From assembly GCA_017506865.1 (NCBI GenBank), contig JAFCMP010000019.1, positions 62,001 to 126,000 on the forward strand: 64,000 nucleotides of DNA, given 5' to 3'. Positions within the stretch are counted from its first letter, which is position 1, and every line of letters begins with the position of its first letter. The position numbers and the translations under genes were made by a program. This DNA is from Tribonema minus (taxonomy: Eukaryota > Sar > Xanthophyceae > Tribonematales > Tribonemataceae). Below, one piece after another: positions 5,938 to 45,943 of the stretch. The notes beneath the pieces are model-generated. The model ran no database searches. It worked only from the letters and a program-made list of their open reading frames with translations, and had not been told where the DNA came from.

Positions 5938-8900
5938 ATGCGGACAACTATGAGGTGCTGCGCTGCGGCGGTAGGAGCTGTCAGCCTTGCGAGCGCGTTC
6001 GTTGCGCCGTCCAACCGGTTAGCACTCTCGGCCTCGCTGCTCCCCCGCTCTTCCCGCTTCGGCCTGCGCATGGCAGACTCGTATGACTACGATGTGATCA
6101 TCGTTGGTTGCGGTGTGGGCGGACACGGTGCCGCCCTGCACGCCAGAGCTTGCGGTGAGTACCAGCATAAGGTTCGCAGTCGGGTTACATTGTGTCACCA
6201 AGAGCTGCTGTGGGACACTTGTGCTAATTTGCACTAGCCTCATGGCCTCTTGTTGAAGCACAAGCACGCACTGTGAACATCAAGTTCATCAGCAAACTTT
6301 GGATTAGTGCTCTTCCCTGTCAATCTGCGGCTTGCTAATCACAGATTTATCCAGCTGCTGCAGCTTGCAATCACCATCACCTCAGCATGCATGGTTTGTG
6401 CTGTCTTGATTGACCCTCAGGCCTGAAGACGGCGGTGTTTTCTGGCAAGGACGTTGGAGGCACGTGCGTTAACAGAGGCTGCGTGCCATCAAAGGCGCTG
6501 CTGGCGGCAGCAGGACGCGTTCGCGATATGCAGGTGGGCCTTGCTGGTTGCTCTATTACCAACTTCTGTGCGCTGCAAATCTGGACACCCAATCAGTTGA
6601 AGTCGCAGACTTGTTCCGAGTTTGCAGGCACTTCAAGAGCTCGTGCAGTTGGTGTCTGTATATTTCGGCTGTACAGGACTGGCAAGGGCCACATGCAGTG
6701 CATTTTACGCCTGCACATGGTGCAGGACATTCCAGAGCAACATCACCTCGCAGCCCAAGGGTGAACTGTTGAATACCCCAAGTTGAAGCAGCGCTCCGCA
6801 TGCAGCAGCAACCAGCAAGGGGCGCTGGCTGTGCTTCGAAAGTTGCACGACTGTCAAAGCAAGGCCGGCATTGCAAGAACGATGTCCACAGCCTCGACCC
6901 TGAGTGGGGTGCACTGCAACCGTCCTTAGATGCGGGCTTTAGGCGCGGCATCACAGGTTCGCCTTCTGCGCCGCACAGATGCCAGATTTCTCTCTCTCTC
7001 TGTCAGCGTTGGTGGAAGCGGCAGTGGGCGTCTTGCGCATAGACCGCTGGGAACTGAAAGGGACAGCTTCATCATATTACAAGCATCATCGTCAGATTGC
7101 ATTCGTTGATTGAGCCGCATGGTGCATGCGCAGCCAGCAGTGGTCATCGCATGCGTTACAGCACGCTGCAAGTACTGCACGTGCACAGCGACAGCGCGAT
7201 GCCCACTCGTGCACGGACGTTGAGCTGCCACAGCGCACCTGTGCGCGAGAGGCGGAACAGAATATTGCTGTCGCAGCGCTCAGCACTGGCACCGGCTCGG
7301 CGTGGCGGCATTGCGGTTACAGACCTGACGTCGCAGTAGTGACTCCATCTTCTGGATGGTGTGAGACGTGTGCACACACCCACAAGCTGACTTTTGCTGC
7401 GTCATATCGACACACACGACACAGTCGCAGGGCAGATCATATACTGTGTGCCCAGAGGCGAGCCCACCATTGGCGCCAAATGTAGCGTTCCCCCCTGCAA
7501 CAGCGAGCGGCATAGCTTCGTTATCGCCATACAGCCGTCATCATTCGAGGCTCTGTGGTGCTTGGCGGACAAGGGCGGAATTATACAGGCATTCGTTGTT
7601 CAGGTTGAGTATAGCTGATTATATGGTGTTGATCCACTTTAGGGCTCTTTGCGAACCGCGAAGTAACGTCAAGCTGGCTTGCTGCCCACGTGCAGCACGC
7701 AGCACCTGCCAACTCATGGTGTGTATAGTGGCTGCCATAACAACACCTGGCACTGACAATCAAACCATCAACTTCAAACCCAACAACGGCCATGTGATTG
7801 GGCACGTTGCTGCTGTCGCTCCATACGCCAATCTGATAGTGCAGTGCAAGTTTAGTAATTCAAAAATACTATTGCGCTCTTAGGGTTAGGGTTAGGGTTA
7901 GGGTCAGACGGTGCGCGCGTCTGGCACCCCCGGCAGGCACGGCCTCTATACGCACCTGTCGGCCTGTTCCACCAGTCACAAAGTCGCAAGCGGAACCCCC
8001 TGTCCCCCCCAGATTCCTCACCACCATGAGTGGCTCCTGGGGGCACGGGCATCATCATTCATGGCAACGCTCAGCGCCGCGCGCCACTACTCCCATCTTC
8101 ATTGATTACTCCTGCGGACATTTACGAGCACCATCGTTCATGGCGACGCTCAGCTCTCCCGGCTACTACCCCTATCTTCACCATTACTTCTATGGACTTG
8201 ATGATCATTGAAGGCTTGATGCCCCCCCGAACCCCCCCTCAAATCCCCCGCAGAACGAGCACCACCTCGAGGGCCTCGGCATCACCGTGGACGGCGAAGT
8301 CAAGTTCGACAGGCAGGCCGTCGCGGACCACGCCAAGAACCTCGCCTCGCGCGTGCGCGGCAACCTCGAGGCCTCGCTCAAGGGCCTCGGCGTCGACGTC
8401 ATTGAGGACGCGGGCGAGCTCGTGCGCGCGCACACGGTCAAGGGCGCGTCGCGCGAGTACACCGCCAAGGACATCATTCTGGCGCCCGGCTCGCTGCCGT
8501 TCGTGCCACCTGGCGTGCAGGTGCGGTGCGGCGTGCAGTGTGCTGCGAGTCGCGAACGTTGCGCGTGTGTCTGCGCATCGCTGCTGCCGATTGATTCTGC
8601 TGCTGCTGCTGCGGCAAGGGCGCGTCCCGTGAGTACACCGCCCAGGGGACATTATCCTCGCGCCCGGCTCGCTGCCGTTCGTGCTGCCGGGCGTGCAGGT
8701 GCGGTGCGAGTCTGCTGCGCAGGTTGAGAGCGCGCGCGTGTGTCCGTACATCGCCGCCGCCGCTGCTGCTGACTGATTGATTGTGGCGGCTCGCTGCCGT
8801 TCATGCCGTCCGGCATGCAGGTACGCGTGCGCGCGAGCGAACGCGCGAACGCGCCGCGTGTGTGCTGCAAGTCGCGGACGCGTGTGTCTGTCTGCGCAGC

Positions 8901-11900
8901 TGCGGCCGCTGCTGCTGATTGATTGTGGCTGCAGCTGCTGCTGCGGGCGCTGCCGCATGTGCCGACCAGCACGCATTCGCTTTGTACAGCATATTTTGTA
9001 CAGCACCTCATACGCAATGCGTCGCGGCTGGTCCATGCGACCCCATGGAATGCGCCGCTTGCCCACGGAACGAGGAGTTACCGATGATGACGATGATGCC
9101 ACGGCCCCATGTGGCACTGCCTCTCGTGAAGCCCAGAGTAGAGGGCGGCATCTGGCGCTCCCTGCGACTCTCCGAATGGTGATGTCCGCGTGCGCAGCGC
9201 ATGCATGCTGGTCGCCGCGCAAGGGGCGCGCTGCCCGGGTGCGCTGCGCTCAAAAGTGGCGAGGCGCACGCGTCGCGCGCCCGCAGTGCAGGTAACACCA
9301 ACTTCAATCTGAGTCGCGCGCGCGCGGGGGGCCTTCTCTTTTCCGTCTTGAACTTCGATGTGTAGCTTCAACGCGTACTTTGTGCGTACTCACCCCCACC
9401 CCCCACACACACGCAGGCCGACGAGAAGACCGTCTTCACCTCCGACGGCGGCCTCAACCCTCGCTTTCCTGTCCTGAAACTCCAGGTGTAACCTCAACTT
9501 CAACTTGTGTAACCTCAACTTCAACATATATAATCTCAACTTCAAATTGTGATGCGCGCAGGCCGATGAGAAGACCGTCTTCACCTCCGACGGCGGCCTC
9601 AACCTCGAGTTCGTCCCCGAGTATGTCGCGATCGTCGGCTCCGGCTACATTGGCCTCGAGTTCTCTGACGTCTACACGGCGCTAGGCGCGGAGGTCACCT
9701 TTATCGAGGCGCTGCCGATGATCATGCCGACGTTCGACCGCGAGATCGCGCGCCTCGCGGAGCGCCTGCTCATCAAGCCGCGTGCCATCGACTACCGCGT
9801 CGGCGTCTTTGCCAGCGAGGTGAGTGCGAGAAGGGGCACGCCCGAGTAATTTGAGAGTGCGCAGAGTCTGCGTGCGTGTGGTGTCAGTGCGAGTGCGAGA
9901 CGAGAGAAAAAGTACTTGAGAGTACGCAGGGTCTGCACGTACGTGGCTGCGGCGTCAGAGCCCTGCGCATACTCTGCATGCGCTCGGCGCGCGCGTCGGT
10001 GGCGTCTTGGCCAGCGAGGCGGGTGTGCGCGCTACCCGAAGCGAAGCGCACGAAAGCGCGCGGCATCACGGCGACACGTGTATTCTGCGCGCGCTCGACG
10101 TGTGGCAACGGCGCCGCCAGCGACGTGCTTGGCAATGACGCGCACGCGCCCTCAATAGCTATCGTAGAAGCACCATGAACCACAAAAGCGCGTGCTGCGC
10201 CGGCTCCCCCCCCCCCCCCCTATCATGACCTCAGGTAACCCCGGCATCACCATCAAGGCAAGCAGGGGTCCCCTTCTTTTGTTCCACATACTTGATTCAG
10301 AGCTGCGAGAACTTGCTCTTACACCCCACCCCCACCCCCAACCCCACCCCACTCCACCGTCCAAATCATGACTGCAAGTGACCCCCCACATCCCCTCCGT
10401 GAAGCCTGTCACTGTAAAGACAAGCCCCCACTTTTTGTTGTGCGCATTTGTCCAGGGATGAGACTTACACGCACATACATTGACGTTAATGACCCTTATT
10501 AATGACCCTCCTCCCCCCCCCCCCTCCCCCCATCACGACCTCAGGTCACCCCCCACATCCCCGGCGTGAAGCCCGTCACCATCAAGACAAGCCCCCACTT
10601 TCTGTTGCACACGTATTCACGTATCGGTTTAGGGATGGGATAAGAACATGAATTTCAATGATTGACTCCCCTCCCCCTCCAACTCATCACTGCAGGTGAC
10701 CCCCGGCATCCCCGGCGTGAAGCCCGTCACCATCAAGATGATCGACGCTAAGACCAAGGAGCACGTGGAGACGCTCGAAGTCGACGCGTGCATGGTCGCC
10801 ACCGGCCGCGTGCCCAACACCAAGACGCTCGGCCTTGATAACATGGGCATCGAGACCGTGCGTGGGTTTGTTCAGGTCAACGACAAGATGCAGGTGAGAT
10901 GTGACAGTTGCGCTGACATTATGAAGTTGAGGTTGATGGTATGATTGAAGCTGAAGTTGGCGGTGGGGTCAAGCCGGAACTGTGCAGCCATGGCGGTTTA
11001 GAGTTGAAGTTGGCGGTGGAGTTTGTTCGGCAGTAGAGCTGATGCTGCGCACGTCGTTGTGCGGGTTTTACGGAAATGAATCAAAAGATTGGTTTTACAA
11101 AATGCCGGCGAGGCGGCGGCTACGCTAAGATTAACTAAGATTGGCGGTGGAGTTCGGTTTGTAGGGTCGAGATTGCGCGCGGCTTTGTGCGAGCTGTCTG
11201 TCTGCAGGTGAGATGGCCGTGACGGTCTAGAGTTGATGTCGGCGGTGGCGGTTGTTTCAGTAGGGCTGACGCTGTGCGCAGCCTTGTGCGAGCGGACGCC
11301 ACGACGCAGATGACTCTGCAGTTATGGTTGGAGTTAGGGTTAAAGATCAGGTTTGGAGTGTGATCGGGGTTTGGGGGTTGTTTGGCCAGCAACGCAGAGG
11401 CCGTGCTCGGCTCGGTTCAGGTCAATGACGGACATGCAGATGAGGCGCTAGGGTTAGGGTTAGGGTTGGGGTGAGACCGCTCACAGCCTCGTGCGAGTCA
11501 TCAACCAGATGCAGGAGAGGTGGCGGCAAGACTAGAGTTAGTGTCAGCATCAAGGTCTGGTTGTGAGTGGGCAGCTGGGCTGCTCCTGCACACCGCCAAC
11601 ACGCGCCATTGGGGTGAGAACGAGGGCGCAAGTCATCGACAACTAGGGTTAGGCTATGGGCAGGGGGCAGGGGTTGGGGGTTGGGGTTGGTAATCTCGGT
11701 CGCGTCTGCACACCGCCAATCCCATCATCAACTGAGACGGAGGGTTGTGTGCAGCAACGACTCAGGGACTGTGACAGCGCTCTGGCTTTGTGGGGTGTGA
11801 GTTCTGGCTGCATCAGGTGCTCAGCGGCCCTGCGTCATTCACGTATGTGTCACGTAGTCTGTTCATTCATCCCCATTCAACCATGAATTCATGCTTGCAT

Positions 11901-14668
11901 CAGGTGCTCAGCGGCCCCGACGGCGCCGTCGTCCCCACTCTGTACTGCATCCGTGACGCCAACAGCAAGATGATGCTCGCGCACGCTTCATTCATTCATT
12001 CACTCATCCAATGCATTCATCCATGAATTCATGCGCCGCATCAGGTGCTCAGCGGCCCCGACGGCGCCGTCGTCTCCACTCTGTACTGCATCCGTGACGC
12101 CCAGCGGCAAGATGATGCTCGCGCACGCTTCATTCATTCACTCATTCATTCATCCATGAATTCACGCGCTGCATCAGGTGCTCAGCGGCCCCGACGGCGC
12201 CGTCGTCCCCAACTTGTACTGCATCGGCGACGCCAACGGCAAGATGATGCTCGCGCACGCGGCCAGCGCGCACGGCGTGAGCGCTGTCGAGAACATCTGC
12301 GGGCGCGCCAACGTCGTCAACCACAATGCCATCCCCGCGGCGTGCTTCACGCACCCCGAGATTGCCATGGTGAGTTTGTCGCGCGCGGCGGCAGTGAATT
12401 CTACAGGGTAAAAGTTTAGGTCAGATTGAGCTACATACCGTAGGAATGCCATCCCTGCCGCGTGCTTCACGCACCCCGAGATCGCCATGGTGAGAGTCGG
12501 TGGCAGTGGGTTGCACAGAGCGAGGGCTTGGGTCAGATTATGCCACATGCTGTAGGTATCTACTATCACATCATACTATCATACCATGCTACCCCCACGG
12601 CGTGCTTCACGCACCCGGAGATCGCCATGGTGAGATCTTTTCATTCACTTCCGTGAGAGGTGGTTGCGCGCGGCGGCAGTGGGTTGCACAGAGCGCGGGT
12701 TTTGGTTAGATTGTGCTGCAGTCTGTAGGTATGCCATCCCTGAGGCGCGCTTCATGCATCCCGAGGTAGCCATGGTGAGAGTTGGTTGCGTGCGGCGGCA
12801 CTGGGGTGTACAGAGCGAGGGTTTGATTTGGGCGCTGATACAATATGTACCCAATCGGCATGCTTCACACACCCAGAGATCGCCATGGTGAGTCAGTCGC
12901 AGCCACGGAGGGGCTAGGGACAGGGGCGCTTTGCGACACTCCGCGTATGCGGCTGCGCTAGCGAAGTCTGGTCACACTCTTGGTGCACGTAGATGCTGCG
13001 GTATGCTTCACGCACACGTAGATTGCCACGGTGAGTGAGTGCCTTGTCGCGCGCCTTGTGGATGTTGCAAAGCTGGCAGCGCCAGCTGCTGCATCGTTCG
13101 TGCATGGGCTGCATGGCGCAGCGCGCTGCCTAACACTCACTTTTACCCTGAGGCCTCGCCGCCATGTCTCATGGTCGATGATTGGCATTGCACCGTTGGC
13201 GGCGGCGTATTCTAAGCCTCCGGGATTGCCTGTGTGAGACCGCACTTCAGACATCGCAACCCCGTGGCTGGGTAGATGAAGTAAAGGAGCAGGCAGCCCG
13301 CGGCTTGATGCAGATAACTTTTTTTACATAGATGCGCGCGCCACTGCAAACGGTGGACTCTCCGCGCGCTATTAGTTCTCTAGTGCTGCGCACGCTCTCA
13401 GACGGCGTCCCGCAGGAGCTCATCTCAATGTCAACGCAGCATCCATTCATACATACATACCGACTCAGCGCCGCCCCTGCGCCATCGCTGTGCCGCAACA
13501 GGTCGGCCTCACCGAGGAGCAGGCTAAGGAGGACGCCGCTGCTAAGGGGTACGAGCTCGGCAAGTCTGTGGGACACTTCCGCGCCAACTCCAAGGCGCTC
13601 GCGGAGGGCGAGGGCGACGGCATTGCCAAGGTACGAGCGCTGATCATTTGCACACGGTGTTAAAGTTGAAGTTGTGTTGAACCATGGCGATCGCAACTGC
13701 GGCGGGGGCGCGCAGAAAGAGGCGCCATGATGGCGTAGCATCTCACCTTGTCTCGGCGCCACGTCCAAGGCGCTGGCGGACGGTGAGGGCGACGGCCTTG
13801 CCAAGGTACGCGCACCGATCACTTTGCGCTGTCTTGAAGTTGAAGTTGTACTTACCAGAGCCACTGCAACTGCGGGGGGGGGGGGGGGGGGGTACGCACA
13901 GAGAGGCGCCACTGCGGCACAGCAGCACCGGCCCGCATGCACGTGCCTGGAGTATTTCCAGGCACACTGACACTGAAACAGAGGCCTGCGGAACACAACC
14001 TCTGCGCAGGGGTGCGACATTGCGCCGGCTTGCGTGGGGGAAATGTTCAGAACTGGAAGCTGCCCCGCACCTGCAGGGCGCTGGAGCACCTCTCATTTCG
14101 ACAGCTTGACTTTGTGTCAGGCTCGCGTTCATTTCATGGCTGCGCCTCTAGAGCTCTCTTCTTGTATCATCTCCAAGCCGTTGGTGGTGGCTGTGAAGGG
14201 ATAGCCGCAGCGTGCTCGGGCGCAGGGCGCTGCTGTCGCCATTGCACTTGTTGTTGAGGTATCGCCTACGCCCGCTGACAGTGTATGCACAATTTCATAC
14301 TTGAAGTATGCAACGTGAAGAATGAAAACAAAGATCATCACGGAGTCGACATGCGCCCTGATGCACGTTCGCCCTCTTGACGAACCTCAACCCTAACCCT
14401 ATCAAACCCAACCCTGACGCTAACCCTACCCCCCCCCCCCAACCCCGTGTGTATTAATGCGTAGGTGCTGTTCAACAAGGGCACGGAGGAAATCGTCGGC
14501 GTTCACATCATCGGCATCCACGCCGCGGACCTCATCCAGGAGTGCTCCAACGCGATCGCGACGGGCACGACCGTGCGCGAGCTGTCCATGCTCGTGCACA
14601 CGCACCCGACGCTGTGCGAGGTGCTCGACGAGGCGTTCAAGGGCGCGGTCGGGCGCGCCGCGCACTGA
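5938..14668 (+). CDS. Plastid dihydrolipoamide dehydrogenase (E3 subunit), eight exons
   Basis: Exons 5938-6154, 6421-6533, 8254-8520, 9562-9819, 10696-10893, 12178-12369, 13502-13630 and 14465-14668; all phases fit, giving 525 residues. It oxidises the dihydrolipoyl arm of plastid pyruvate dehydrogenase with FAD and passes electrons to NAD+. Visible landmarks: a hydrophobic N-terminus with ASAF|VAP (residues 18-24), the secondary-plastid bipartite targeting motif; FAD loop [11 protein letters not shown] (about 57-67); redox disulfide CVNRGC (C88/C93); NAD loop [19 protein letters not shown]; the second FAD stretch [17 protein letters not shown]; and the C-terminal catalytic HTHPTLCE. The downstream reading closely follows plant/cyanobacterial plastid-type E3 rather than the mitochondrial type. 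ATG 5938 was chosen because it gives the full targeting peptide; ATG 5950 is an alternative. Introns are long (about 270 to 1,700 bases) and packed with decayed copies of adjoining exon edges. Confidence 0.93.
7879..7909 (+). repeat. Interstitial telomere-like TTAGGG repeat
   Basis: About four consecutive TTAGGG units, then a degenerate one, inside intron 2 of the dehydrogenase gene. Similar short arrays lie near 11446, 17000-17065, 50430-50466, 52346, 53160, 55890-55930 and 62360 (reverse orientation in the last ones). Confidence 0.85.
8612..8935 (+). repeat. Tandem decayed copies of exon 3 tail plus donor site
   Basis: Positions 8612-8698 repeat the last ~85 bases of exon 3 (about 8436-8520), including the following GTGCGG donor. 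Positions 8785-8820 repeat only the last ~35 bases, with a GTACGC donor. The intronic DNA after each (TGATTGATT plus GCTGCTGCTG runs) is repeated too, so the unit is an exon tail plus the intron start, about 150-170 bp long. A fainter third copy may begin near 8936. Confidence 0.85.
9417..9459 (+). repeat. Copy of exon 4 start with its acceptor
   Basis: After a CAG acceptor at 9414-9416, the first ~40 bases of exon 4 (9562 onward) are repeated with one difference, then the similarity ends. It reads [14 protein letters not shown] before diverging. Three tandem CTCAACTTCAA-type units (about 9482-9546) separate it from the real exon. Confidence 0.88.
10235..10587 (+). repeat. Three decayed copies of exon 5 start with acceptors
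   Basis: Copies at about 10235-10257, 10378-10420 and 10545-10587 repeat the start of exon 5 (10696 onward; [14 protein letters not shown]). Each follows a TCAG- or GCA-type acceptor-like end and a C-rich tract. The copy nearest the real exon is the best preserved. Two of the three are also followed by the same ACAAGCCCCCACTTT intronic sequence. Confidence 0.87.
11817..12128 (+). repeat. Three copies of exon 6 start with acceptors
   Basis: Copies begin after GCATCAG at 11817 (about 19 bases long), 11904 (about 84 bases) and 12045 (about 84 bases); the real exon starts at 12178 after the same GCATCAG. The 11904 copy keeps an open frame, and the 12045 copy has a frame change. TTCATTCATTC runs and CCATGAATTCA separate the units, so the duplicated unit includes intron sequence. 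Confidence 0.9.
12445..13030 (+). repeat. Five copies of exon 6 end with GTGAG donors
   Basis: The exon 6 tail (CACCCCGAGATTGCCATG followed by GTGAG) recurs at 12445-12489, about 12592-12629, 12731-12774, 12854-12887 and 12997-13030. Each copy keeps a GTGAG donor and each is usually followed by similar intronic sequence (GGCAGTGGGTTGCACAGAG). Divergence grows with distance from the real exon. Confidence 0.9.
13757..13805 (+). repeat. Copy of exon 7 end with donor
   Basis: It repeats the last ~50 bases of exon 7 (ending GGCATTGCCAAG at 13630) and the following GTACG donor with GCACCGATCACTTTGC. The frame still reads GEGDGLAK. Confidence 0.88.
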
Positions 14669-27529: not shown

Positions 27530-28183
27530 TGCGGCACGCGCCGTCGCTGCCTGCGCTGTTCAGCAGCAGTGCTCAGCAGCGTTCATCGGCCACCGCCCTG
27601 CAAATCGTGTGTGTGTGTGGGTGGGGAGGGGGGGGGTCACATGAGGCGCAGGCACCCGATCCAGGCCGTCGCAGGATGCTTCGATACAGCGATGGCGTCA
27701 GATCGCACAGTGTCACGTCACGCTCATCATACAAGCACGGCGAGAGCTGCACCATTTAGGACACAGATGCAGTGGCAGACCGCCTCCACTGACTGGGGTC
27801 AGCGACGGCGGCGGTACCTTGTGCTGCGGATCGTGGTGGAGCGAGCCACTGCCGTCGCCTAGGCTGCAGTGCTTGTGAGCCCGCCAGAGTCTTGGACTCG
27901 GGAGACAGGAGAAGTCGGTGCCAAGGCACCGTTTCAGTTCATTGCATGCTTCCGGCTTTCTCTGAGGCTGCTGGTGGTCTTTGAGACTTGGATGAAACTC
28001 TGAGAGCTGCCATTGATTGGTGGTGTGTAAGACAGCATGTCGAGAGCTTACGTTGTCTAAGAACAACCTACAACTGTAAGAACAACCTACAACTTCAGGT
28101 ACTGGCTTTATTTTGACACATCTACAAAGTGCACTTTGCCTGTACTGGCTAAGACGAAGACACGGTTGCCAGATGCGCCAGCT
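27530..28183. other. Intergenic between divergent genes
   Basis: Between the methyltransferase (-) and the PPR gene (+). It contains a GTGTGTGTGGGTGG / G-run stretch at 27608-27636 and a duplicated AAGAACAACCTACAACT at about 28060-28095. No gene seen. Confidence 0.5.
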
Positions 28184-30385
28184 ATGAGCAGGAAAGTATG
28201 GCCTCCCCAGAGCAGCATCTGGTCCTTCACCGCTGCACCACAACCTCACCTCCGTCTATTTTGTGCTGAAACACACAGGATTGCGCCCGCTGCTGGCCGG
28301 GACGTGCCATGCCGCCTTCTGCTAATGGCTGCTCTGCAAGGTTCAATGAAGACTAACGAAGAACACGCCGCCTCATACTCAGACAACTGTCCTGCTTGTT
28401 TCCGTTCCTCAGGACTTGAAGTTGACAGAAGTTCTTATAGAAAATATGCTAAAAACAAAGCGATGCTGTCGCTCGCGGGGCGACAGGCCTGGCGTGCCGC
28501 CAGAGGGCTCCAAGTCGATGCTGGGCGTGCTGTGAAAGAGCCTCTGTTTCGTCAAAGGATCCAAGGATTTCACCCTGTCGGTGGGATCTCGACTTTTGTC
28601 GCATGCGGTGTCCAGGCAGCCGGCTTTTACGCGCGTCCCATCGATGGTAGCAGAGGTGTCGTACTTATCACGAGCAGTTACCGTGGCTTTGCGAGTGCAA
28701 CACCTGAGAAGGCCCTGACAGCACGCAACGCACCTGACAAAGGGCAGCAAAGCAGAAGCGGCAGCGCAGTCAACATCAGCAGCAGCAGCGGCGGCAACAG
28801 CGGCAGTAGAAGAAGCTGCGCCGGCAGCAACGGCAACAGCGGCGGCGGCAAAAGAAACGGCGTCGCCCGGGACAGCAACGGCGCGGGCAGCGGCAGAAGC
28901 GGCGGTGCTGGCAGCAACGGCGTGAGCACCAGCGGCAGCAGCAGGGACAGCACTCAATCAGGTGACGCGCCTGAGGCTCGTGCGAGCGACCAGCTCAAAT
29001 CCATTGCTCGCCCTTCCACTAGCGCTGGTCAGCATATCAATATGCCCAGCGCCCCAGAGCTACAGCTGCATGCTGAGCCTGCCACCTCATCAGACTGGGC
29101 GCATCTCGTCCGCACACATGTGGCGGCGCGCAACCCTCGCAGTGCGGCGCTCGTCCTCCGCCAGATGGTGGACGGCGGTCACAAGCCTGATGCGGCGCTC
29201 TTCAACGCCGTTCTGCGTACCAACCCCAGATATAGGTCTGCGGCGGATGGAGCCACCGTGTTGTCGCTCATGTCACGGGCCGGGTTGCCGCCCGATGTGA
29301 AGTCGCACAATCTGGCGCTACACGCATGCTGCAGCAGTGAAGCCGTGCAGCAAGCCGACAGGATTCTGGCGAGCATGTCAGCTGCGGGCGTCGCCCCCGA
29401 CAGGCGCACCTTTGCGGGCGTGCTACAGGCGTGCAGGTACTCGCGAGACTGGCGCCGCGCACTCGAAGTCTTCCGCGACATGGAGGCGAATCACCCAGAG
29501 TTTGCCGACGTGCACATGTGGAACCGCCTCCTGCAGGTGCTAGTTGTGTGCACGGTGCCACGAACCACGCTTAAGGTGGCGGCAGACATGGCGGAGCGTG
29601 GATTTGCGCCCACCACTGCCACCTACATGATTCTCTTGCAGGCGCATGCCGCGCTCGGCGATGGCGCCGCGGTTGAGAGCGTGCTGTCGAGCATGCATGC
29701 CGCGGGAGAGGATGTGACGTTCGCAGCGCGCGCTGCGCTCGCCAAGGGCTACGTGTACGGCGGGCACATGGAGGCCGCGGAGGAGGCGCTGGAGGCAGTG
29801 CTCAGCAGCGACAGCGCTGTCAATGTGCGCACGGATGCAGTCACGCTCTTCATGAACGCATGCGGCTCTGCCGGTGACCTGCCGCGCATTGTGCGCTGGC
29901 TGCAGCGCCTGCCGTCGCTGGGGCTGGCGCCGACGCCTCGCATGTGGAATGTCGCGGTGAGTGCAGCGCACAAGGGGGGCGACGCCGCGGCAGCGGACTC
30001 TCTGTGGCGCGACGCCGGCGGAGCGGCGTACTTTGGCCTGTACAAGGTCTTGGTGCCGCCGAAGGGGGGTGCTAGCAGGGGTTGGACGGTGCTGGTGGAT
30101 CATGCCGCAGAGCAGCCGCATGCGATGAGCGTTGCGCTGGACGTCAGCACCTGCAGCGTCGGCATGATACATGCGGCGCTGCGTGCAGAGGTGAGCCGGC
30201 TGCGCACGCAGCGCGTGTCGGCGGTGCTTTACATATACATACAGACCTCCATGCCCCACGACCACGCAATTGCAGCAGCAGAGGTTGCCGCGGTAGTGCG
30301 GGATGTCGGCCTGCATATCTCTGCTGTGCCAGATACGCCCGGTTTGTTCAGGGTTGCGCTGCCCCTATCACCGCCGATGCAATAG
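28184..30385 (+). CDS. Pentatricopeptide repeat protein with Smr-like C-terminus
   Basis: A single exon, stop TAG at 30383-30385. The N-terminal third is a Ser/Gly/Asn-rich linker. From about 29090 there are PPR-type helical repeats: SAALVLRQMVDGGHKPDAAL, then blocks with MSRAGLPPDVKSHNLALHAC, MSAAGVAPDRRTFAGVLQAC, RRALEVFRDMEANHPEF, MAERGFAPTTATYMILLQAH and LPSLGLAPTPRMWNVAVSAA, each about 35 residues. The end (MSVALDVSTCSVGMIHAALR ... AVLYIYIQ) follows the Smr fold pattern but lacks the usual DLHG and the TGRG-type loop, so nuclease activity is doubtful. PPR proteins bind organellar RNA, so a plastid or mitochondrial RNA-processing role is inferred. In-frame ATGs at 28184 and 28325 are both possible starts; paralogy with the copies downstream begins near 28440. 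Confidence 0.78.
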   Translation: MSRKVWPPQSSIWSFTAAPQPHLRLFCAETHRIAPAAGRDVPCRLLLMAALQGSMKTNEEHAASYSDNCPACFRSSGLEVDRSSYRKYAKNKAMLSLAGRQAWRAARGLQVDAGRAVKEPLFRQRIQGFHPVGGISTFVACGVQAAGFYARPIDGSRGVVLITSSYRGFASATPEKALTARNAPDKGQQSRSGSAVNISSSSGGNSGSRRSCAGSNGNSGGGKRNGVARDSNGAGSGRSGGAGSNGVSTSGSSRDSTQSGDAPEARASDQLKSIARPSTSAGQHINMPSAPELQLHAEPATSSDWAHLVRTHVAARNPRSAALVLRQMVDGGHKPDAALFNAVLRTNPRYRSAADGATVLSLMSRAGLPPDVKSHNLALHACCSSEAVQQADRILASMSAAGVAPDRRTFAGVLQACRYSRDWRRALEVFRDMEANHPEFADVHMWNRLLQVLVVCTVPRTTLKVAADMAERGFAPTTATYMILLQAHAALGDGAAVESVLSSMHAAGEDVTFAARAALAKGYVYGGHMEAAEEALEAVLSSDSAVNVRTDAVTLFMNACGSAGDLPRIVRWLQRLPSLGLAPTPRMWNVAVSAAHKGGDAAAADSLWRDAGGAAYFGLYKVLVPPKGGASRGWTVLVDHAAEQPHAMSVALDVSTCSVGMIHAALRAEVSRLRTQRVSAVLYIYIQTSMPHDHAIAAAEVAAVVRDVGLHISAVPDTPGLFRVALPLSPPMQ

Positions 30386-31479: not shown

Positions 31480-32757
31480 GGGGATCAATGTTGAGTTTAC
31501 GGGGCGGCAAGGCTGGCGCACGGTCAGAGGGCTCCAGCCATGTGTTGACCAGACGCTGGAAACGCAGCGTTGCTTTCATGAAAACGCAGGATCCCAACTC
31601 AGTGGGATATCGACCATGGTTCGTGCGCTGTCAAGGGCAGGTGGCTCGCACAAAAACTTGACCAGTTTGAGCAATGCTTGGGTGTGCACCACGAGCATAT
31701 GCCGCAGCTGTGCCACTGGGCCTTCTGAGAACGCCGCAGCTAGCGCCTGAGCACATGTGCAGCAGCAGCGGCGGCAGCAGCAGCACCAACGGCAGCAGCG
31801 GTAGCAAGGCCACCAGCAGCAGAAGTCATGCCCCAGGGCTCCAGCAGCAGTGCTCACGTCAACATTGGTGGCGTCACTACTAGCGGCACTAATAGCGGTG
31901 ACGGCAAAAAAATACTCCAGCTGGTCCGCAATCGCAACTGGAGAGACAGATTCTGCAGCAAGTTCGATCACCTAACAAGCCTTGTCTCGAGCGACGTGCT
32001 TAGGGCCATCATGGTCCCTGCCGCCCACGCTGGCCAGCACGAACTGGTACGCAGGGCCCTGAAGCAACTGGTAGACTCTGGTCGGGCGAAAGACTGGGCG
32101 CACCTCGTGCGCGCGCACTTGGCAGCGGGCAGTATGTCCACAGCGCAGAGCTCGCCCTCGGCCAGATGGTGGACGGCAGCCACAAGTCCACAGCGCAGAG
32201 CTCGCCCTCGGCCAGATGGTGGACAGCAGCCACAAGTCCACAGCGCAGAGCTCGCCCTCGGCCAGATGGTGGACAGCAGCCACAAGCCCAGCGTAGACAC
32301 CTTCCACACCGTCCTGCTCGCCAAAGGCCGCGATTCGAATGTCGCCGGCAACGCGGCGGTGGTGCTACGGCTCATGCCGCAGTGCGGCGCGCCACCGGAC
32401 TTCACGACGTACAACACGGCGCTGCACGCGTGCCGCGGCGCCGGCGCCGTGCAGCAGGCCGATGCGCTCCTGGCGAGAGCGAAGGCCGCGGGCCTCGCCC
32501 CCGACAGACACGCCTTCGAAGGCATGCTGCGCGCGTGCACGGTGGTGTCATTCATTCATTCTTGGCTGCAGTGCGCAGGAGGTGTCATGGCTGCAGTGCG
32601 CTTAAATCTACAGCGCGCCCGCGACTGGCGGCGCGCGCTCGCCGGCTTCCGCGACGCGGAGCGTATCACCCCCCGCCTTTGTCGACGCGGACATGTGGAC
32701 GTGCCTCGTGCAGGCGCTCGCCATGTGCGGGCAGCCGCGGCGCCTCACCTGATCGAT
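31480..32757 (+). pseudogene. Degenerate PPR paralogue
   Basis: 31490-31650 is a diverged third copy of the same 5' segment (GRQGWRTVRGLQ, SGISTMVRALS). From about 32070 it parallels the intact PPR gene: DWAHLVRAHLAAG, LALGQMVDSSHKPSVDTFHT, APPDFTTYNTALHAC, AVQQADALLARAKAAGLAPD and RARDWRRALAGFRDAE. Three differences stand out: two extra 50-bp copies before QMVDSSHKP; a 72-base insertion (32542-32613) with GT...CTACAG ends, absent from the intact gene and reading like an intron; and a shift in a C run near 32670, after which the paralogous frame (FVDADMWTCLVQALAMCGQP) ends at TGA near 32753. It lacks the later PPRs and the Smr-like end. Probably a truncated, possibly transcribed copy. Confidence 0.72.
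32137..32286 (+). repeat. Three tandem 50-bp units at an exon-start-like site
   Basis: Units at 32137-32186, 32187-32236 and 32237-32286, each starting TCCACAGCGCAGAGCTCGCC, with only one or two differences. Fifty is not a multiple of three, so each unit is read in another frame; only the last reads the PPR sequence. A GTATGT at 32132 and CAG in the last unit could splice out the first two. Confidence 0.9.
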
Positions 32758-33258
32758 TAAAAGCATCAACCGGATCCCCCATTCCTAGCACAGCTGACGC
32801 TGGCCGCATGCGTTTCGCATGAATCTCAATGCTTCTGTTAGATTAGGTGCAGTCAGATGATGTCGCAGGTCCGGAAGCCTACGGCTGTGCTGGTCACGTT
32901 CCGGTCTGTTTGGCAGTTGCTGAAGGAGCTGATCACATCAAATACCTTTGAACCATAGTACTTCAGCACCTTTACCTCAGCTGCTGGCGTCTGTGGAGTC
33001 AAGTACGTGCTGCTCCAATTTAAAGATGGCAGCAGCACCAGCATTGAAGCGGCCATGCATCGGATTCGCGGCGACTCTGACTTGTCTCTGTCAAGACCAA
33101 GAGACTCCACTGCGCCCACATGCATCTGCACCTCAGCATCTATCCTATCAACCTGTCGAGGCTGGTGTCTTGCACGAGCGTATTGCACAGCAATGATGTG
33201 CCATGACCGCATTGCTTAGAGCACCCCATGTACTGACAGGAATGACGCCGGGGTATGC
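32758..33258. other. Intergenic, no gene recognised
   Basis: No family-like frame on either strand between the PPR paralogue and the hAT element. Confidence 0.5.
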
Positions 33259-35371: not shown

Positions 35372-38300
35372 CTAGCTGGTTGACCAGGGGACGCTGTGAG
35401 CGTTATATGTGCCATCTGGCATGAGCATGGGCCCCTGCTGCCCGCCGCTCCCCCCCCCATGCTGGCTGAAACGCTGCTGCATGTTCATCTGGTGTTGCTG
35501 CAGCGCGTTGGCGGCGCCCTGGTAGCCGCCGCCCGCTCCGCCGCCGCCGCCGCTGCCGCCATCATACTCGTTGTACACGTGCATGTTCGGCTGCTGGTGG
35601 TGCTGCTGGTCGCCGGCGTGTTGGTAGCTGCCGCCAGCGCCGTAGCCGCCGCCGCTGCCAAAGCCGCCGTCGCCGCCCTCGTACTGCGCATACCCCTGCA
35701 TGCTCGGTTGCGGCGCCCACACGCTGCCGCCGCTCGGATAGCTGGCGGCGCTGGCGCCGCCGCCGCCAGTGTTCCAGCGGTGATAGTCACCTGCGCCACC
35801 GGCTGGCATCATCTGCTCGTGCGGCGGCAGGGGGGGCGGGGGGGGGAAGCCGGGGCCCCCCATGTTCCCCCCCTGCCCCGACATGAGTTCAGAAGGCTGC
35901 CACGGCACGCCTGCCATGGCTGTGGCGCCCCTGCTGTTGGTCCTCATGGTGGATCGGGCCTGTGGGGAGGAGTAGCGCCCTGTGGCGGCACCGTGCTGCG
36001 CCGGGGACTGCTGGCGCGGCTGCGTCCCCTGGTACGCGTGCGCCGCCGCCGGGGTGTGCACGCGCAGCGCGCCGCGGTTGTGCACGCCGGCGTTGCTGCC
36101 GCGATGCTGCTGCTGCTGGTGCGGCTGCTGCTGCTGGCGGTGCTGCGCCCCGCCACGGCCGTACTGACGCACCAGCGGCGGCGAGCTCGTGCCGCCGTAG
36201 CGCATGTGCGGAAGCTGCTGCGGCTGCGGCGGCGGCGGCGGCAGCAGCGGCGCCGGCGGCTGACCCCTCGGCGCGCCGACGAAGCCCCCGCCCGGTGCAC
36301 CCCCTGCCCCGCTCTGGGAGGCTGCCAGCAAGTTTGTGCCGAAAGCCTGATGGTTGCCAAAAACGCTGCCCGGCACGTGACTGCCCGACAGCACCGCAGC
36401 GTGCGCCCCTGGCCCTTCCGCTGCCAGTTCGCTGTCCGCGCCCCCATCGTCGAGATAAGTGATGTGCGGAATGAAGCCGACGTCGCTGTTGCCGCCGCTG
36501 CCGGCGCCCGCGTCTCCTCCGACGTCAGCGGCAGCAGCGCCCGAGCGCTCGATCAACGAATTCACCATCTCCATTTGATCGCGGTCGAGCATGGACTGCT
36601 GCTCACCCCCCGCCGGCTGTGGCACAGGTGGCGCCTCCATGGGCGCCGCCGCCGCCGCCACTGCCGCTGCCGCCGCCGCCGCCGCCGCCGCGGCCCCCTT
36701 GGCGCTGCCTGCACGAGGGCTGGCACCTTTTCTGCGTTTCCTTGGCTGTGGTGCTGTCTCGCACCACAGAGCATCATCCCCCGTGTCTGCGTCGCTGCCG
36801 CCGCTGTCGGCAGCATCGTCGCTCGGCACGCCTTGCGGAAAGGTCAGCAGCACCTGCGCAAGCTGCGCGGCGGCGCGCGGCGTCCTCTGTGCCGCAGCGC
36901 CGCCGTTGGCCTCGGTGGCTTCGCGGGTCCCTGCAGCAGCACCCCTGGGCTTCTTGGCGGCGCGCTTGCTGCCGCCGCTGCCGCCGCCGCCGCCACTGCC
37001 GCCGCCATCAGCACCACGCTTATTCTGCTGCTTTGCTGCAGCGCCGCTGCGTGCCGCTGCCGCCGCCTCATCATCCTCTGCTGCTGCTACTGCTGCTGCT
37101 GCTGCTGGTGATAGTGACGCCAGGACTGCTGCCACGGGCTGCGCTGCTGCTGCCGCCTGCTGTTGATGCACCTTTCCCACCGCATTCTGTACTACCATCG
37201 CCATCTCGAGGTTAAGCTGCGGTTCACGCACGGGAGAGTGGGCGGGCGTCCCCTGCTTGCGCGGTAGCGACAGCTGCTGATCGCCCAGCCGCTGCCGCTG
37301 CCGCTGCTGCCGCTGCTGCTGCTGAGCAGCTACCGCCGCCGTACTGCTGCTGTCCTCGCACAGCGCGGCACTGGAAGCCCGCTCCTGCAGCACCCTCAGG
37401 TTCGCCTCCCCAGACTCGGTTGCTGCCAACTCGGTCGCCATCACATCAACCGCATCGTAGAACTCGGTGTCGGAGGCAGGGTCCTGTGCGGGACCGGCCG
37501 CCGATGGCGCCGCCGCCATCGCCCCCAGGGCTTCCTTTGGCGGCGCGTCGAAGGGGGGAGCGTCGCTGACCCCCATGCCACCATCAAGGCTGGTTTTGGC
37601 GGTAGCCGCAGATTTCGTTCTTGTTGCTTCAAGCAAGACACTGAGGCCCGGAACCGCGGCACTGCTCGCGCCGTGCCGGCTGCTGCTGCTGCTGCCGCCG
37701 CTGACGCTGCCGCCACCGTTCCTGGCACCATGTTGAATACCACGGCCGCCATCGCTGCCGCCGCCGCCATTGCTGCCGCCGCCGCTATGGCCGCTGCCGC
37801 CGCTGCCGCGGCTACCGCCGCTGCCGCCAACGCCGCTGCCGCCGTCGCCGCCGCCGCCGCTGCCATGGACGCTGCTCGCCAGCTCCTCCATGCATGTGGC
37901 AGGGGAAGATGGTGCGGATGTTGCGGCGCCAACCGCGTCAGCTGTCACTGCGCTGATCGCTGCTGCCTCTGCTACTGGCGCTGCGGCAGCGGACGCTGCG
38001 CCAAGCTCTGCGGCAGCAGCTGGTGTTGTGTCTGCTAGTCGGTCGTCCAGCAGCGACTGAGCGCGCGCCGCCGCTTCCGCAGTTGACTCGTCGCGCACAG
38101 CTGCTGGCGGCTCCGCGGCAGCGGACGCAGCAGCAGCAGCAACCGCTGCCGCCGTTATCACAGCCATGGAGGCGGCGGCGGCGGCGTCTTCGCCATGTGA
38201 ACGCATGCTTGCATCTTCAGCTGCCGCAAGGGCTGCTGATGGCGCAGCCTCTAAGTCGCCAGCTGCAGCTGCCGCAGCTGCTGCCGCTGGCATCTCTGCG

Positions 38301-41300
38301 TCCTGTGGTGCTTCCACCTCAGCAGCAGCAGCAGCAGCAGCAGCAGCGTCATCAGCAGCAGGAGCGCGGGCGCCCGCCTCCGTCGCAGCCCCCGCTGCAG
38401 CAGTTGAGCCCGCTGCCGCAGCTGCTGCCGCCAGCGCCGCCGCGGTCGGCACAGCGCGCGCGCCTGCCGCCGGCTCCTCTACCACTGCGAGAGTACAGGT
38501 TGCAGATGGATCAGTGTCGCCCGACTCCGCCTCAGCAGCGCCAGCAGCAGCGGCGCGTGCTGCATCGGCATCAGACCCGCGAGCAGGGCTGCGCGCCGCT
38601 TCCGCCGTTGAAAATGATGGCTCCGCCACAGACAAGGCAGCGTCGTCCTGCTCTTGGCTGCTGCCGCCGCCCGCAGGTGTCGCAGCAGAGTCGCAGGCGG
38701 CGGCAGCTGCAGCATCTGTGCTGATGCCGTCGGCGGCGCCGGCGCGGCGCTGCGCGAGCGGCGCCTCCTCCGCCGCCGCCGCGCGCTCAGGCGCGGCGGC
38801 GCGCGCATTCGCCTGAAGAGCTGCTGCCGCCGCGAGCTCCACCGCCGCCCGCGCAGCACTGGGCTCAGCTGCGCCGTGTCCCGCGGAATCCGCACTTGCG
38901 CTGCGGCTGAGCGCTGGCGCCGCCGCCGACGCTGCCACCGCGGGCAGCGCCACAGGGCGCAGCACAGCGCCACGTGATTGAGCCGACACTGCCATCGACA
39001 GCGGCGGCGCTGCATCGGTGGCAGCAGGAGGGGCGTCCTCTTGCGCGTCACCATCCGCCGGCGCTGGCGCCGCCTGTGCGCTCGGCAGCGGCACTGCTGG
39101 CGGCAGCAGGCTGCTGCTGACGGCGCCATCAGCGCCGCGGCATGTGCAGCTGCCGCAGACGGTCCCTCCGAGACTGCAGCTGCAGCCGCCAGCGCTGCCA
39201 TCGCCACCGCCGCCGCATTTGTCGCCGTTCTGCATGACGCCGCTGCCGCCGCCGCTGGACGCGACGGGCTCCGCCGCAGCGGCAGCTGGCGCAGCGTCGC
39301 ATGCGGCGCCAGCGGCAGCGCACGCTTGCATGGCTGCAAGTCCATCGGCAGTGGCGTGCAGCTCTGCCGCGGCCGCAGCACCGGCGGCGGCCGCGTTCGG
39401 CTGTTCCAAGCTGCGTATGATTGACTCCGGCCCCCACGCCGGGTGCTGTGCGACGCGCTTCGCGAACTTGCTGCCCTGCTGCTGCGTCGCGTGCGCCAGC
39501 ATCTCGCGGCGGATGCCGTCGTGACCCGGCTGCGCGCGCGCGTGCCGGAAGCCGCGCAGGTACGCGCAGCCCGGCGGCAGCGGGTGGTTGAGGCGCAGCG
39601 CGTCGATGGCGCCCTCCTGCCCAGCGGCAGCGCTCAGCACGTGCTGGTCGTACGCGTACGCCGCCTGCCGCGCGTCGGCGAAGGGGCCGTACAACGTCAC
39701 GCCGTCGCGCGCCGCTGCGTCCTTCGCCTTGGCGTAGTACCCGTCCTTCTTGCAGCTCACGCCGAGGAGGCCAGCGACGTGGCCGTATTTCTGCTGCTTG
39801 ACTGGCGCAGCTGCCGCTGCTGGCGGAGCGTCTGCTGCCTCGGCGCCGCCGCGGCGCCGCTTGCCGGCTGCACGTCTGGGGCCCTCGTTCTCCGCAGCGT
39901 CTGCCGCCGCCAGCGCCGCTGCTGCCTGCGCCGCTGCTCCTGTGGCAGCCCCCCCATCGCCGGCGTGCGCCTCGTCGTCCGCGGCAGCACCCGCGCCATC
40001 GCCGATCTCCGCAGCAGCGGCGCCGCTTTTGCCGCGGCGCTGCCGCTGAGAGCTTCGCGCAGCAACGCCAGGCGCCGCAGCGTCTGCTGCAGGCTCGGCA
40101 CTGCCCGGCAGTGCGCGTGCTGCCGCAGAGTCTGTGACTGCCGCCGTATCCTCCGCCCCAAGCGCTACTGCCGGCTGCTCTGCGGCCGCATCCTCCGCCT
40201 CCGCCTCCGCCTTCGCCTCCGCCGCTGCTGCTGCTTGTGCCGCTGCTTCTGGAGCCTCTGCTGCCTGCGCTGCTGCAGCGTCCTCGGCAGCTGACAGCCT
40301 CTCGGGAGGCCGCCGGTTTCGCGCCACCCGTTGCCGCGCAGGCTCTGGTTTTGTAGCCGCCCTCTTGCCGCCGCGCCGCGCAGACCTCTGCGCCGTGGCC
40401 TTCCGCAGCGTGTCCTTCGCCTCAGCTCCACCAGGCGCCGCTGCTGCTGCTCCAGCTGCGTGTTTGAGCTCTGCGCTTGTGGCACGACCGCCGCCCGCCG
40501 CCGCCTCTGTGGAGTCTGCTGCCGCCTCAGCAGTGGCCGCGGCACCAGCACCAGCGCCAGCAGCAGCAGCAGCAGCAGCAGCAACGGCGGCAGCTGCATC
40601 CTCGACCTTTTCACCGGCGCTGCTTGTCGGCCATGCGCTGCCCTTCCCAGCAGAAGTGGCGCTGGACGTGTCAGCAGCAGCACCAGCAGCGGCAGCAGCA
40701 GTCTCCGCGCCCGAGCTCTCACCGTGTTTCGGCGCCGCACCTGCCGCAGCCGTTACAGCATCCTCCACGGCAGCGGCGCCCTCTGCTTCCGCAGCAGCGG
40801 CGGCGGCCGGCACCTCCGCCGCAGCAGCCGCGCCGCTGCGCACCTCCCCGCTCGCGCCGCCGACGCCCATCTTCGGCGACATTACAATCAGCCCGGCGGC
40901 GGCGGCAACAGCGGCCGCCCGCTCAGTGGCGGCAGCTTTATCTGCAGCGGTGTCGTCGGTGCGCGAGGCCTTCGCCATTGCAGCAGGTGCCGCCGCCGCC
41001 GCCGCTGCCGGTGCCGCTGCTGACTCCGCTTCCTGCGATAGGCCGGAGACCGCCGTATCAGACCTCCCAGCTGCAGCGTCGGCCGACAGACTGTTTCTGG
41101 GTGCATCTGCCGCCGTAGCCGTCTCGCCGCCAGCCGCCGCTGCCGCTGCTGCAGGCGCAGCCTCAGCAGCGGCACAAGCAAGATCTGCTTCATTCGCGGC
41201 TGCCGGTGCAGGCCCTGTGCCATCTCCAGCTGCGGCGCCTGCAGCTTCCTGTGCTGATGGCGCAGCACCAGCCTTGCCGGTGTCCTGCGCTGCCACTGCT

Positions 41301-41849
41301 GCTGCTGCTGCCGCCGCTGCTGCGCCCGCCGCCGGCGCCGCAAGTGCTTTGTCCTTGCACTGCTTGCACTTCCATGCGGAATTCTTCGTCTTCGACTTCT
41401 GGGTTTTTGGAGTGAATGCGCACACGATGTGGCAGCTGCACGCGCACCCGTCGCACGTCACACGGCCCTTGCTCTGCTTGCTAGCCGTGGTTGCGCCGCA
41501 CACGCTGCACGCCACGGGGCCGGCGGCGGCTGGCGCCTGACGACACGCCCGCTTCGCACCCGCCGCTGCGCCTTCCGCCACCTCCTCCGCGCCAGCTGCA
41601 CCAGCAGCGCTGCCTTCACCGCCAGCGAGAACCCCTGCAGCTGCGTGGCCGTCGGGTGCCGGCTGTCGACGCTCCGCTGCAGCTCCGCCTGCAACAGCAG
41701 CAGCAGCGCCCGCTGCCTCAGCGCCTTCTGCTGCTGCGTCGCTGGTGCCTCTGCTTGCTTCTGCCGCTTTGGGAGCCGCGGCGACTGCGGCGCTGCCAGG
41801 CTGTTCGCTGGCTTGCGCTGCTGCGTCCGCAGTGATTGTTTCGCCGTCG

Positions 41850-41886
<37 letters not shown>

Positions 41887-42616
41887 GCAAGTCAGGCGCA
41901 GCATCCTGCTGCGGCGCGCCCTTGCGCTTTGAGGATTGCGCTGTGGCTCCGCGGTTGATGTGCCCACACTTTGTGCAGGTCGTGTATCCGGCATCTGCAT
42001 CGGCGCCGAGTATACCAGCATCCGTCGCCAGCGCCGCAGCTGCTTTCGCTTTGGCAGCGCGGCCCTTCTGTGCACCCTTTGCTGGTATCTTGCCTGGTGC
42101 ACCACAGTCCTTGTGGTAGAATGCGTCGCAGTTGGCGCATTGAACGACGGGCCCAGCATCGTCATTCGCGTCGTGCCGCTTACAGACAGCGCATACCGGA
42201 GCTTGTGGTAGACCACCGGCATTATCCGCGCTGCTGGCGTGGACTGCCGCTGCGCCGGATGCCTGAAGGTGCGGCCAGAAGACGGCGACTTGGTCGGCAG
42301 CGAGTTGCACCATCTGCGGCTCAGGCGGCGCGGCACCTCCCCGTCTGGCAGATTTCCTCGCAGTCTTTGTCACTGCAGGCAGCGCAAGCAGCCGGCGACA
42401 ACAGAGTGAAAGGGGTGCCGTGCCATGGAAACACATATGAAGTGAGCCAAAGAGTGGCCTGCACACCCGCTGGCTGCAATGGATCTTACCTGTTTGCTGT
42501 GCCATTTTGAGTGCTTGCAATGCAGACGCCGCCTCGAACGCTGCATCTCGGCTCTCGAAAGGCCCTTGTATAATGTTCCCAAACACCGGATCTCCGTTCA
42601 ACCTCGCAGCCCACAT
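35372..42616 (-). CDS. Giant PHD finger / AP2-like low-complexity nuclear protein
   Basis: Two exons: 42616-42490 and 42372-35372, about 2,375 residues. The 117-base intron (AACAG|GTAAGA ... CTGCAG) is a multiple of three without stops, so it could also be retained. The N-terminus (FGNIIQGPFESRDAAFEAA) resembles the strand-helix part of an AP2-like fold. First PHD finger at about residues 103-185: CAVC, CANC, YHKDC, CTKC. A second, about 150 residues on: CSVCG, CDGC, CHIVC, CKQC. An AP2-like domain near residues 900-980: GVSCKKDGYYAKAKD then TLYGPFADARQAAYAYDQHV. The rest is Ala, Gln and Gly repeats; the C-terminus is Gly/Tyr/Gln/Pro-rich. PHD fingers read histone tails and AP2 folds bind DNA, so a chromatin-bound transcription regulator is inferred. 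ATG 42616 may not be the true start. Confidence 0.78.
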
Positions 42617-45225: not shown

Positions 45226-45938
45226 GGCCGCCGCTGCCGCCGCGGGCGGCTACTGCCGGCTGAGGAACAGCAGAGCTGCAGTATCTGAACGCGCGCTGGC
45301 TGGTGAGGCAGGGATCGTCTGCGGGGGCCTGCAGCAGCAAAACGGGATGGGATCAACACTTGGGGTCATCGTGAGCGCTGGACGCACAACTGGGTGTTTG
45401 ACCTGTCCGCGTGTGCAAGCCCTGCTTCTGCAAAGGCTGCCCATACCGTATTCGAATTGTCTGTTTTGAGTATCTGTGCTGGCCCCTTGACAGCCCAGTA
45501 TAGAGGCGCAGGAGGCCAAGGTGCTTAGAGCGCACTCAAGACAGCTGGGTACTCCACCAAGCTTGAGGATCGCATGGAGTCCATGACATCAAGCGTGGCA
45601 TCACATGCTTCAACGACGTTGCTGAAAGTACTTGCACAAACGATTAGGGCCATGATAACAAGCGGGTTTGTTTGGTACAAGCTGTACAGTGAGATGCGCA
45701 TGAGCTTTGTGCTGCATGTTCGAGTTGACGCACCTCTGCGCTGGACACAAGCAGGAGCCGGCGCCAAATGCGAACGCCACGGGTGTGCGACAGCGCTGGG
45801 CTAGCCGAAGACGCAGAACTCTCGAGCGCGATTTTTTTTTTTTAAATTGTTGTAGACTTCAACTGCAAGTCTGAGTTGAAGTTCAAATCGTGATGGCGTA
45901 GACTTCAACTGCAAGTCTGAGTTGAAGTTTAAATCGTG
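45226..45938. other. Intergenic between divergent genes
   Basis: Between the HAD gene (-) and the MPN gene (+). The right end holds two 46-bp repeat units (see 45852-45943). No gene seen. Confidence 0.5.
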
Positions 45939-45943
45939 ATGAC
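45852..45943 (+). repeat. Two 46-bp units with internal inverted repeats
   Basis: Units 45852-45897 and 45898-45943 are almost identical. Each contains ACTTCAACT, then AGTTGAAGT, as inverted arms around GCAAGTCTG, and ends AAATCGTGATG. The first ATG of the MPN gene frame (45939) lies in the second unit. Confidence 0.9.

Follow-up and report, generated by a model that had tools for sequence, protein, structure and literature searches.

Introns are usually considered to lengthen through mobile elements, and in some algal genomes introners add intron sequence. Minisatellite or tandem-repeat expansion also occurs within introns, and internal gene duplications reportedly add either coding sequence or whole introns. 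In intron gain by tandem genomic duplication, which PMC3443670 reviews (the Rogers model; Hellsten et al., 2011), an exonic segment containing AGGT is duplicated, whereupon a new intron arises between the two copies. The potato RdRp gene is given as a case of such gain in PMC4974935, which also describes duplications inside genes, some of them carrying whole introns (Gao and Lynch, 2009, as cited in PMC4974935).

The exon-edge echoes reported here, in which the edge of an exon recurs beside the real edge together with its splice site and adjoining intron, can be set against each of these systems. As in the AGGT model, a local intragenic tandem duplication adds splice-site copies, one pairing of which keeps the mRNA; unlike in that model, the echo unit holds a pre-existing junction together with intron sequence, and it is an existing intron that is lengthened. 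With internal gene duplication the echoes have in common that they are duplications within genes, but they lie silent in the intron, are one-sided and sometimes serial, and decay. Intronic minisatellites likewise consist of direct head-to-tail copies, of similar length and in 2 to 6 copies, but the echo unit includes a functional exon edge that is fixed by selection, so that old copies stay recognisable. One-sided echoes arranged in series and lengthening an existing intron are not described in the accessible text of PMC3443670 or PMC4974935, and no prior description of exon-edge echoes was found among the matches listed in the open-licence literature, at the level of titles and abstract openings.

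The gene from which these observations start occupies 5938-14668 on the forward strand of the window, by which we mean the whole 64,000-nucleotide stretch of Tribonema minus DNA that was analysed. Its eight exons (5938-6154, 6421-6533, 8254-8520, 9562-9819, 10696-10893, 12178-12369, 13502-13630 and 14465-14668) splice to an open frame of 525 residues, and its seven introns, 266-1720 bases long, are all GT-AG. The best PDB match of the product is the dihydrolipoyl dehydrogenase 6bz0 (phmmer, E 2.4e-74), and we infer a plastid-type dihydrolipoamide dehydrogenase (LPD), plastid targeting being suggested by an N-terminal extension alone. Short telomere-like TTAGGG runs occur in two LPD introns (7880-7904 and 11449-11472) and again at 50430-50466, and repeats of the AACTTCAACTT or TGAAGTT type recur in the window at 9486-9551, 42657-42685 and 45852-45941.

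The original prediction for this gene held that exon edges are copied into the neighbouring introns at six boundaries. The copies are real, with self-BLAST and shuffle-tested alignments agreeing on their coordinates and counts, and direct repeats uniting an exon end with its adjoining intron are evident from self-BLAST. All six boundaries hold; six was an undercount, the edges after exon 4 and after exon 5 having now been added. Each edge was aligned to its own intron and compared with 300 dinucleotide shuffles of that intron; at 8 of the 14 edges a copy outscores every shuffle, and 16 copies in total exceed the shuffled 99% level. At the remaining six edges (the exon 1 donor, both edges of exon 2, and the acceptors of exons 3, 7 and 8) no copy rose above the shuffles.

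Following the gene on its forward strand, the donor-side array after exon 3 (8521-8946) contains two echoes of the exon's 3' edge, with donor GTs at 8699 and 8821, both above the 99% level. One acceptor-side echo precedes exon 4 (9412-9463, exon copy from 9417), its exon half identical to the exon at 42 of 43 bases, with a single change, and its intron half barely alignable. A decayed donor-side echo after exon 4 (9992-10019), in which GT has become GC, and another after exon 5 (11397-11444), in which it has become AT, are each the only copy above the level at their edge; both were matched by 0 of 300 shuffles, and both were absent from the original prediction. Between them, the acceptor-side array before exon 5 (10204-10695) has exon copies beginning at 10235, 10378 (AG changed to AA) and 10545, two of which exceed the 99% level while the one at 10235 falls below it. 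The array before exon 6 (11811-12177) has three copies above the level, beginning at 11817, 11904 and 12045, and is read by TRF as a 133 bp unit in 2.8 copies; the array after exon 6 (12370-13036) has five, with donors at 12490, 12630, 12775, 12888 and 13031; and that after exon 7 (13631-13881) has one, with its donor at 13806. GT or AG has been lost in 3 of the 17 LPD echoes, namely 9992-10019, 11397-11444 and 10378.

If the exon edge is written e and the adjoining intron i, the donor arrays read exon-[e i][e i]...-intron and the acceptor arrays intron-[i e][i e]...-exon. That the repeated units span exon and intron, as first proposed, is confirmed by the alignments, and repeated local tandem duplication, also proposed, is upheld by the head-to-tail, same-strand arrangement of the copies in TRF, self-BLAST and alignments (antisense copies, 0/263 edges in the sample described below). 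By eye, the join at which an exon copy runs back into intron is common to the echoes of one array before exon 5, before exon 6 and in the LHC locus L010, and such common joins look like the amplification of a single unit. The two long echoes before exon 6 are 0.90 identical to each other and 0.87 and 0.81 identical to the exon, with common changes that the exon lacks; since they are closer to each other, at least some of this array's growth came from copying an echo rather than the exon edge.

Two further elements of the original prediction fare less well. Copies were said to be more decayed farther from the exon, and the trend is present but weak: at the 10 junctions with at least two measured copies, tallied by our own reading of the divergence rows, exon-half divergence is greater in the farther copy at 6, smaller at 2 and equal at 2 (sign test P 0.29). 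The statement that introns are built from such copies went too far, for the stretches from exon to outermost echo in the six arrays first noted make up 2,353 of 7,153 LPD intron bases (33%), and detected local copies across the sample account for 14,225 of 120,235 predicted intron bases (11.8%). Assemblies are well known to go wrong at tandem copies, but that the echoes are an artefact of assembly or sequencing is hardly credible when the copies differ from one another by anything from a few to more than 30 per cent, carry private indels, occur on many contigs and have a uniform polarity.

Echoed edges are not peculiar to LPD and are seen in several gene families. The sample in which we looked for them consists of the window, 16 arbitrary 10-kb stretches (mean GC 57.8%), 25 LHC loci and 3 mitochondrial-carrier loci, together 331 kb of a 158-Mb genome (~0.2%); the "arbitrary" stretches were set at round coordinates on contigs revealed by the LHC search, and are not random draws. 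Genes were called with our own two-strand gene finder, trained on LPD, on LHC exon matches and on two long frames. It reproduces LPD, a member of its training set, exactly for exons 2 to 7 but with misplaced outer limits for exons 1 and 8; exons beyond LPD and the LHC and carrier matches are ab initio predictions. Exons scoring below 8 and genes scoring below 30 were excluded, which removed LPD exons 1 and 2, as were redundant or overlapping LHC loci (L007, L020, L029, L030 and L031) and L001, L040 and L041; L003 and L009 overlap by 375 bp. Two echoes predicted as exons, L012 2915-2974 and L051 446-610, were left out of the edge, antisense and divergence counts, the one at L012 2915 being retained in the stricter-count scan and the array census mentioned below. 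Short psaA/psaB-like fragments, eleven in all and five of them with stops, were encountered on 10 contigs (L040, L041 and others); they are probably pieces of plastid DNA in the nuclear genome, and the best matches of one psaA-like fragment are PsaA of 9ygv and 9m4f. These matches and the LHC proteins are consistent with an alga of the red lineage; a search for the cryptophyte phycoerythrin alpha family gave 0 matches, though it gave none in the control genomes either.

This left 153 usable exons, for which 60 bases at each edge were compared with the adjoining intron. Copies were found for 35 of 263 predicted edges, about one in eight: the last 60 exon bases were matched in the downstream intron at 19 of 126 edges, and the first 60 in the upstream intron at 16 of 137. 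In 32 of these 35 the copy extends to within 3 bases of the junction. Control searches of one random other intron per edge gave 0/126 and 0/137, antisense searches again 0/126 and 0/137, and searches on the wrong side 0/113 and 1/101. The polarity claimed at the outset, in which the echoes of 5' edges lie upstream and those of 3' edges downstream, thus stands, just 1 of 214 edges being matched on the wrong side. By set, echoes occur at 5 of 12 edges in LPD, 4 of 40 in the rest of the window, 10 of 112 in the LHC loci, 11 of 75 in the arbitrary stretches and 5 of 24 in the mitochondrial carriers, with the reservation that one counted edge, at window position 32216, may be a coding tandem repeat rather than a splice edge. 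Two examples elsewhere in the window, both on the forward strand, are an acceptor-side echo at 52801-52843 of the predicted exon 52979-53153 and a donor-side echo at 56409-56526 of the predicted exon 56079-56261. An earlier and stricter count over the first 225 kb found 31 of 223 junctions echoed, with 42 of 44 hits directed outward and the 2 inward hits explained by a mispredicted exon; by that count a second batch of arbitrary stretches had 1 of 25 junctions echoed, and echo density therefore varies.

Repeats of other kinds, and one long open frame, were met in the same DNA. An arbitrary stretch, L033, carries at 6212-7209 a unit of ~132 bp repeated about seven times, with copies ~90% alike; the window frames 28061-30385 and 31744-32760 have common diverged repeats ~2.7-3.2 kb apart, the first frame having PPR repeats; and on the reverse strand, 35372-42733 is an open frame of 2,453 codons whose sole Pfam match is one PHD finger.

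Introners are known from algae, and one might suppose that introner-like mobile elements, or some other dispersed repeat, compose these introns. Unlike the dispersed family insertions of introners, each echo derives from its own neighbouring exon, and edges match their own intron and not one random other intron each (0/263). Window positions 9000-10000 match only themselves genome-wide (a single stretch, searched by a method that carries a caveat on common words), and five echo probes from the paralogous loci L010, L021 and L014 gave 0 hits each in 166,321 bp elsewhere. A dispersed origin accordingly has next to nothing to recommend it.

Paralogues provide before-and-after views, in that echoes are present in one and absent in another. 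The LHC genes L009 and L010 are ~90% identical over aligned coding exon, while their introns are hardly alignable. Counting the real edge, L010 has 3 copies of the acceptor edge and 4 of the donor edge, as against single ones in L009, where the donor edge is partial. The intronic half of the acceptor unit occurs once in L009, without an echo, and twice above the cut-off in L010, in which the acceptor-side joint falls in a run of C. Here, too, the unit differs from the wholly exonic one of the AGGT model: units hold intron sequence on one side, and in L009 that intronic half stands once and echo-free. Donor edges number 2 in L021 and 1 in its neighbour L028, and edge copies number 3 in L014 and 1 each in L005 and L006. 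L014 also has an intron, 1844-2510, that contains echoes of the edge of its upstream exon and is missing from L005 and L006, where the exon is continuous; the donor of this intron does not have the appearance of copied exon sequence.

A different account would have duplication biased or targeted to splice junctions, introns growing from their ends, for instance because transcription- or chromatin-linked breaks near exon edges are repaired by copying ~100-200 bp across the junction. We regard this as rather unlikely, though the placement of the arrays gives it some purchase. A census of 305 kb returned 76 arrays, 30 of them across a predicted junction, 19 within introns, 17 in other non-coding sequence and 10 overlapping coding sequence in part or in full; the middle 90% of periods is 65-249 bp. 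The raw junction-to-intronic ratio of 30:19, where random placement predicts ~1:3, is a fivefold enrichment that falls to about twofold once exons are masked. Much of the raw excess is a matter of detection, because an echo beside a conserved exon remains recognisable, whereas both members of an intronic pair decay, and it is inflated further because the low-complexity filter strikes introns harder.

With exons masked, arrays abutting a junction were 13 of 39 intronic arrays under the strictest filter, against 22% expected, which is compatible with chance (P 0.06), and 21 of 56 and 21 of 58 under laxer complexity filters (P 0.006 and 0.005). Set against all non-coding arrays, for which 10% is expected, they were 13 of 64, 21 of 88 and 21 of 91 (P 0.013, 0.0002 and 0.0002). 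The masked excess is thus 1.8- to 2.1-fold relative to intronic arrays and 2.2- to 2.7-fold relative to all non-coding arrays, with P from 0.06 to 0.0002, the abutting class being somewhat over-counted because it includes arrays merely within 15 bp of an edge, and introns being assigned from the gene-finder predictions. Against targeting, 36 of the 76 arrays lie wholly within introns or other non-coding sequence.

The length of the exon halves speaks to the same question. They are confined to 20-83 bp in 31 rows (KS P 2e-4; one row is the mispredicted L012 exon, and later insertions may inflate the periods), exon-side breakpoints lying nearer to the junction than a uniform distribution would place them, within ~85 bp. 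In exons of at least 200 bp, an echo of bases 61-120 occurs at 1 of 125 edges (1/69 and 0/56) and one of bases 1-60 at 18 of 125, whereas uniform breakpoints predict ~6.5 for the former (P 0.004 binomial, 0.012 Poisson). The original prediction had set exon edges against exon interiors, and the sample, with 35 of 263 edges and none of 125 middles (0/69 and 0/56) echoed, is in keeping with it; yet the zero says little and adds no evidence, because a uniform-breakpoint simulation of exons of at least 200 bp, where 18 edges were hit, expects only ~1.8 hits in the middle. Nor do the echoes have the form of tandem exon duplication or mutually exclusive exons, in which a whole exon is copied with both splice sites, given 0/125 for the middles and 1/125 for bases 61-120. 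A modest junction bias in duplication is possible, and a splice-anchored mechanism is unproven. Targeting, chromatin, or selection against decoys that bring more exonic enhancer sequence with them could each account for the short exon halves and the junction excess, and such selection could limit the exon half just as well as targeting.

The echoes' divergence was measured in 48 copies at 33 junctions. Exon halves are changed at 206 of 2117 bases (9.7%) and intron halves at 390 of 2466 (15.8%), a ratio of ~0.6, and exon-half divergence at codon positions 1, 2 and 3 is 9.3, 6.9 and 13.0%. These values are close to those expected if the real exon alone is constrained, with positions one and two conserved, and the echo is free. 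The splice dinucleotides of the echoes, changed at 4 of 96 bases, are neither clearly retained nor purged. Selection maintaining the decoy splice sites was considered and dropped on that last figure, and coding constraint on the echoes on the 6.9% divergence at second positions.

The original prediction also described the gene as full of decoy splice sites, and LPD indeed appears well supplied with them: of the 10 intronic GT sites whose score equals or exceeds that of the weakest real donor, 8 belong to echoes. The 8 echo donors scored reach 5.6-7.4, against 5.3-8.8 for real donors, which were themselves in the training set of the matrix, and the score of the weakest real acceptor is attained by 6 of the 7 echo acceptors scored, and by 57 intronic AG sites in all. 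By score, then, the LPD decoys are strong. It could be argued from the similarity of donor scores that echoes serve as alternative or regulatory splice sites or as cassette exons, and the echo before exon 4 does contain 69 nt of open frame flanked by a good acceptor and a GT, which early versions of our gene finder called as an exon (the final version did the same with echoes at two other loci). We nonetheless think a functional role very improbable. Exon halves are changed at all codon positions, the second included, roughly as they would be without coding constraint; the rate of dinucleotide change is not clearly below neutral; and GT or AG has been lost from three LPD echoes, while paralogues do without echoes.

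Direct head-to-tail copies of constant polarity, found in several gene families, present in one paralogue and absent from another, and diverging in a nearly neutral manner, are probably explained by generic small tandem duplications, of which those straddling a junction are kept by selection for normal mRNA. Small direct head-to-tail duplications would arise at many sites in the genome, through ordinary slippage or unequal exchange with, we infer, little or no link to splicing, and some would be amplified to 3-6 copies in the manner of a minisatellite. A duplication straddling a junction would give exon-[e i][e i]-intron at a donor and intron-[i e][i e]-exon at an acceptor. Such alleles would be tolerated because the splice-site copy joined to the intact exon still yields normal mRNA, whereas duplications within exons, or alleles using the outer site, would presumably be purged by selection. 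The redundant outer copies would then decay within the intron, leaving echoes, decoy splice sites that are likely to be mostly unused, and a longer intron. Polarity needs no further cause, because duplication keeps the proximal donor, or the distal acceptor, on the intact exon. The suggestion that a novel kind of process is needed therefore finds no support here: polarity follows from tandem duplication together with selection on the mRNA, and the echoes evolve near-neutrally.

For annotation, the echoes call for caution with gene finders, which can mistake them for exons, as happened with one in LPD and at two other loci. It is doubtful that the introns of this lineage grow from their ends by junction-biased duplication, repeatedly copying outward tens of bases from the exon and tens to hundreds from the intron; were this so, a large share of the intron would be fossil exon edge, and splicing would constantly be choosing among near-identical sites. 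On the preferred reading, small tandem duplications held in place by selection for normal mRNA seem to lengthen introns and to leave decoy splice sites behind. Since a conserved exon provides a reference for dating small duplications across a junction, these offer a way to measure how fast introns grow and decay. Should the frequency seen in the sample apply to the whole genome, there would also be many natural experiments in splice-site choice, the strong decoys being nearly identical in sequence to the real sites and separated from them by 60 to several hundred bp.
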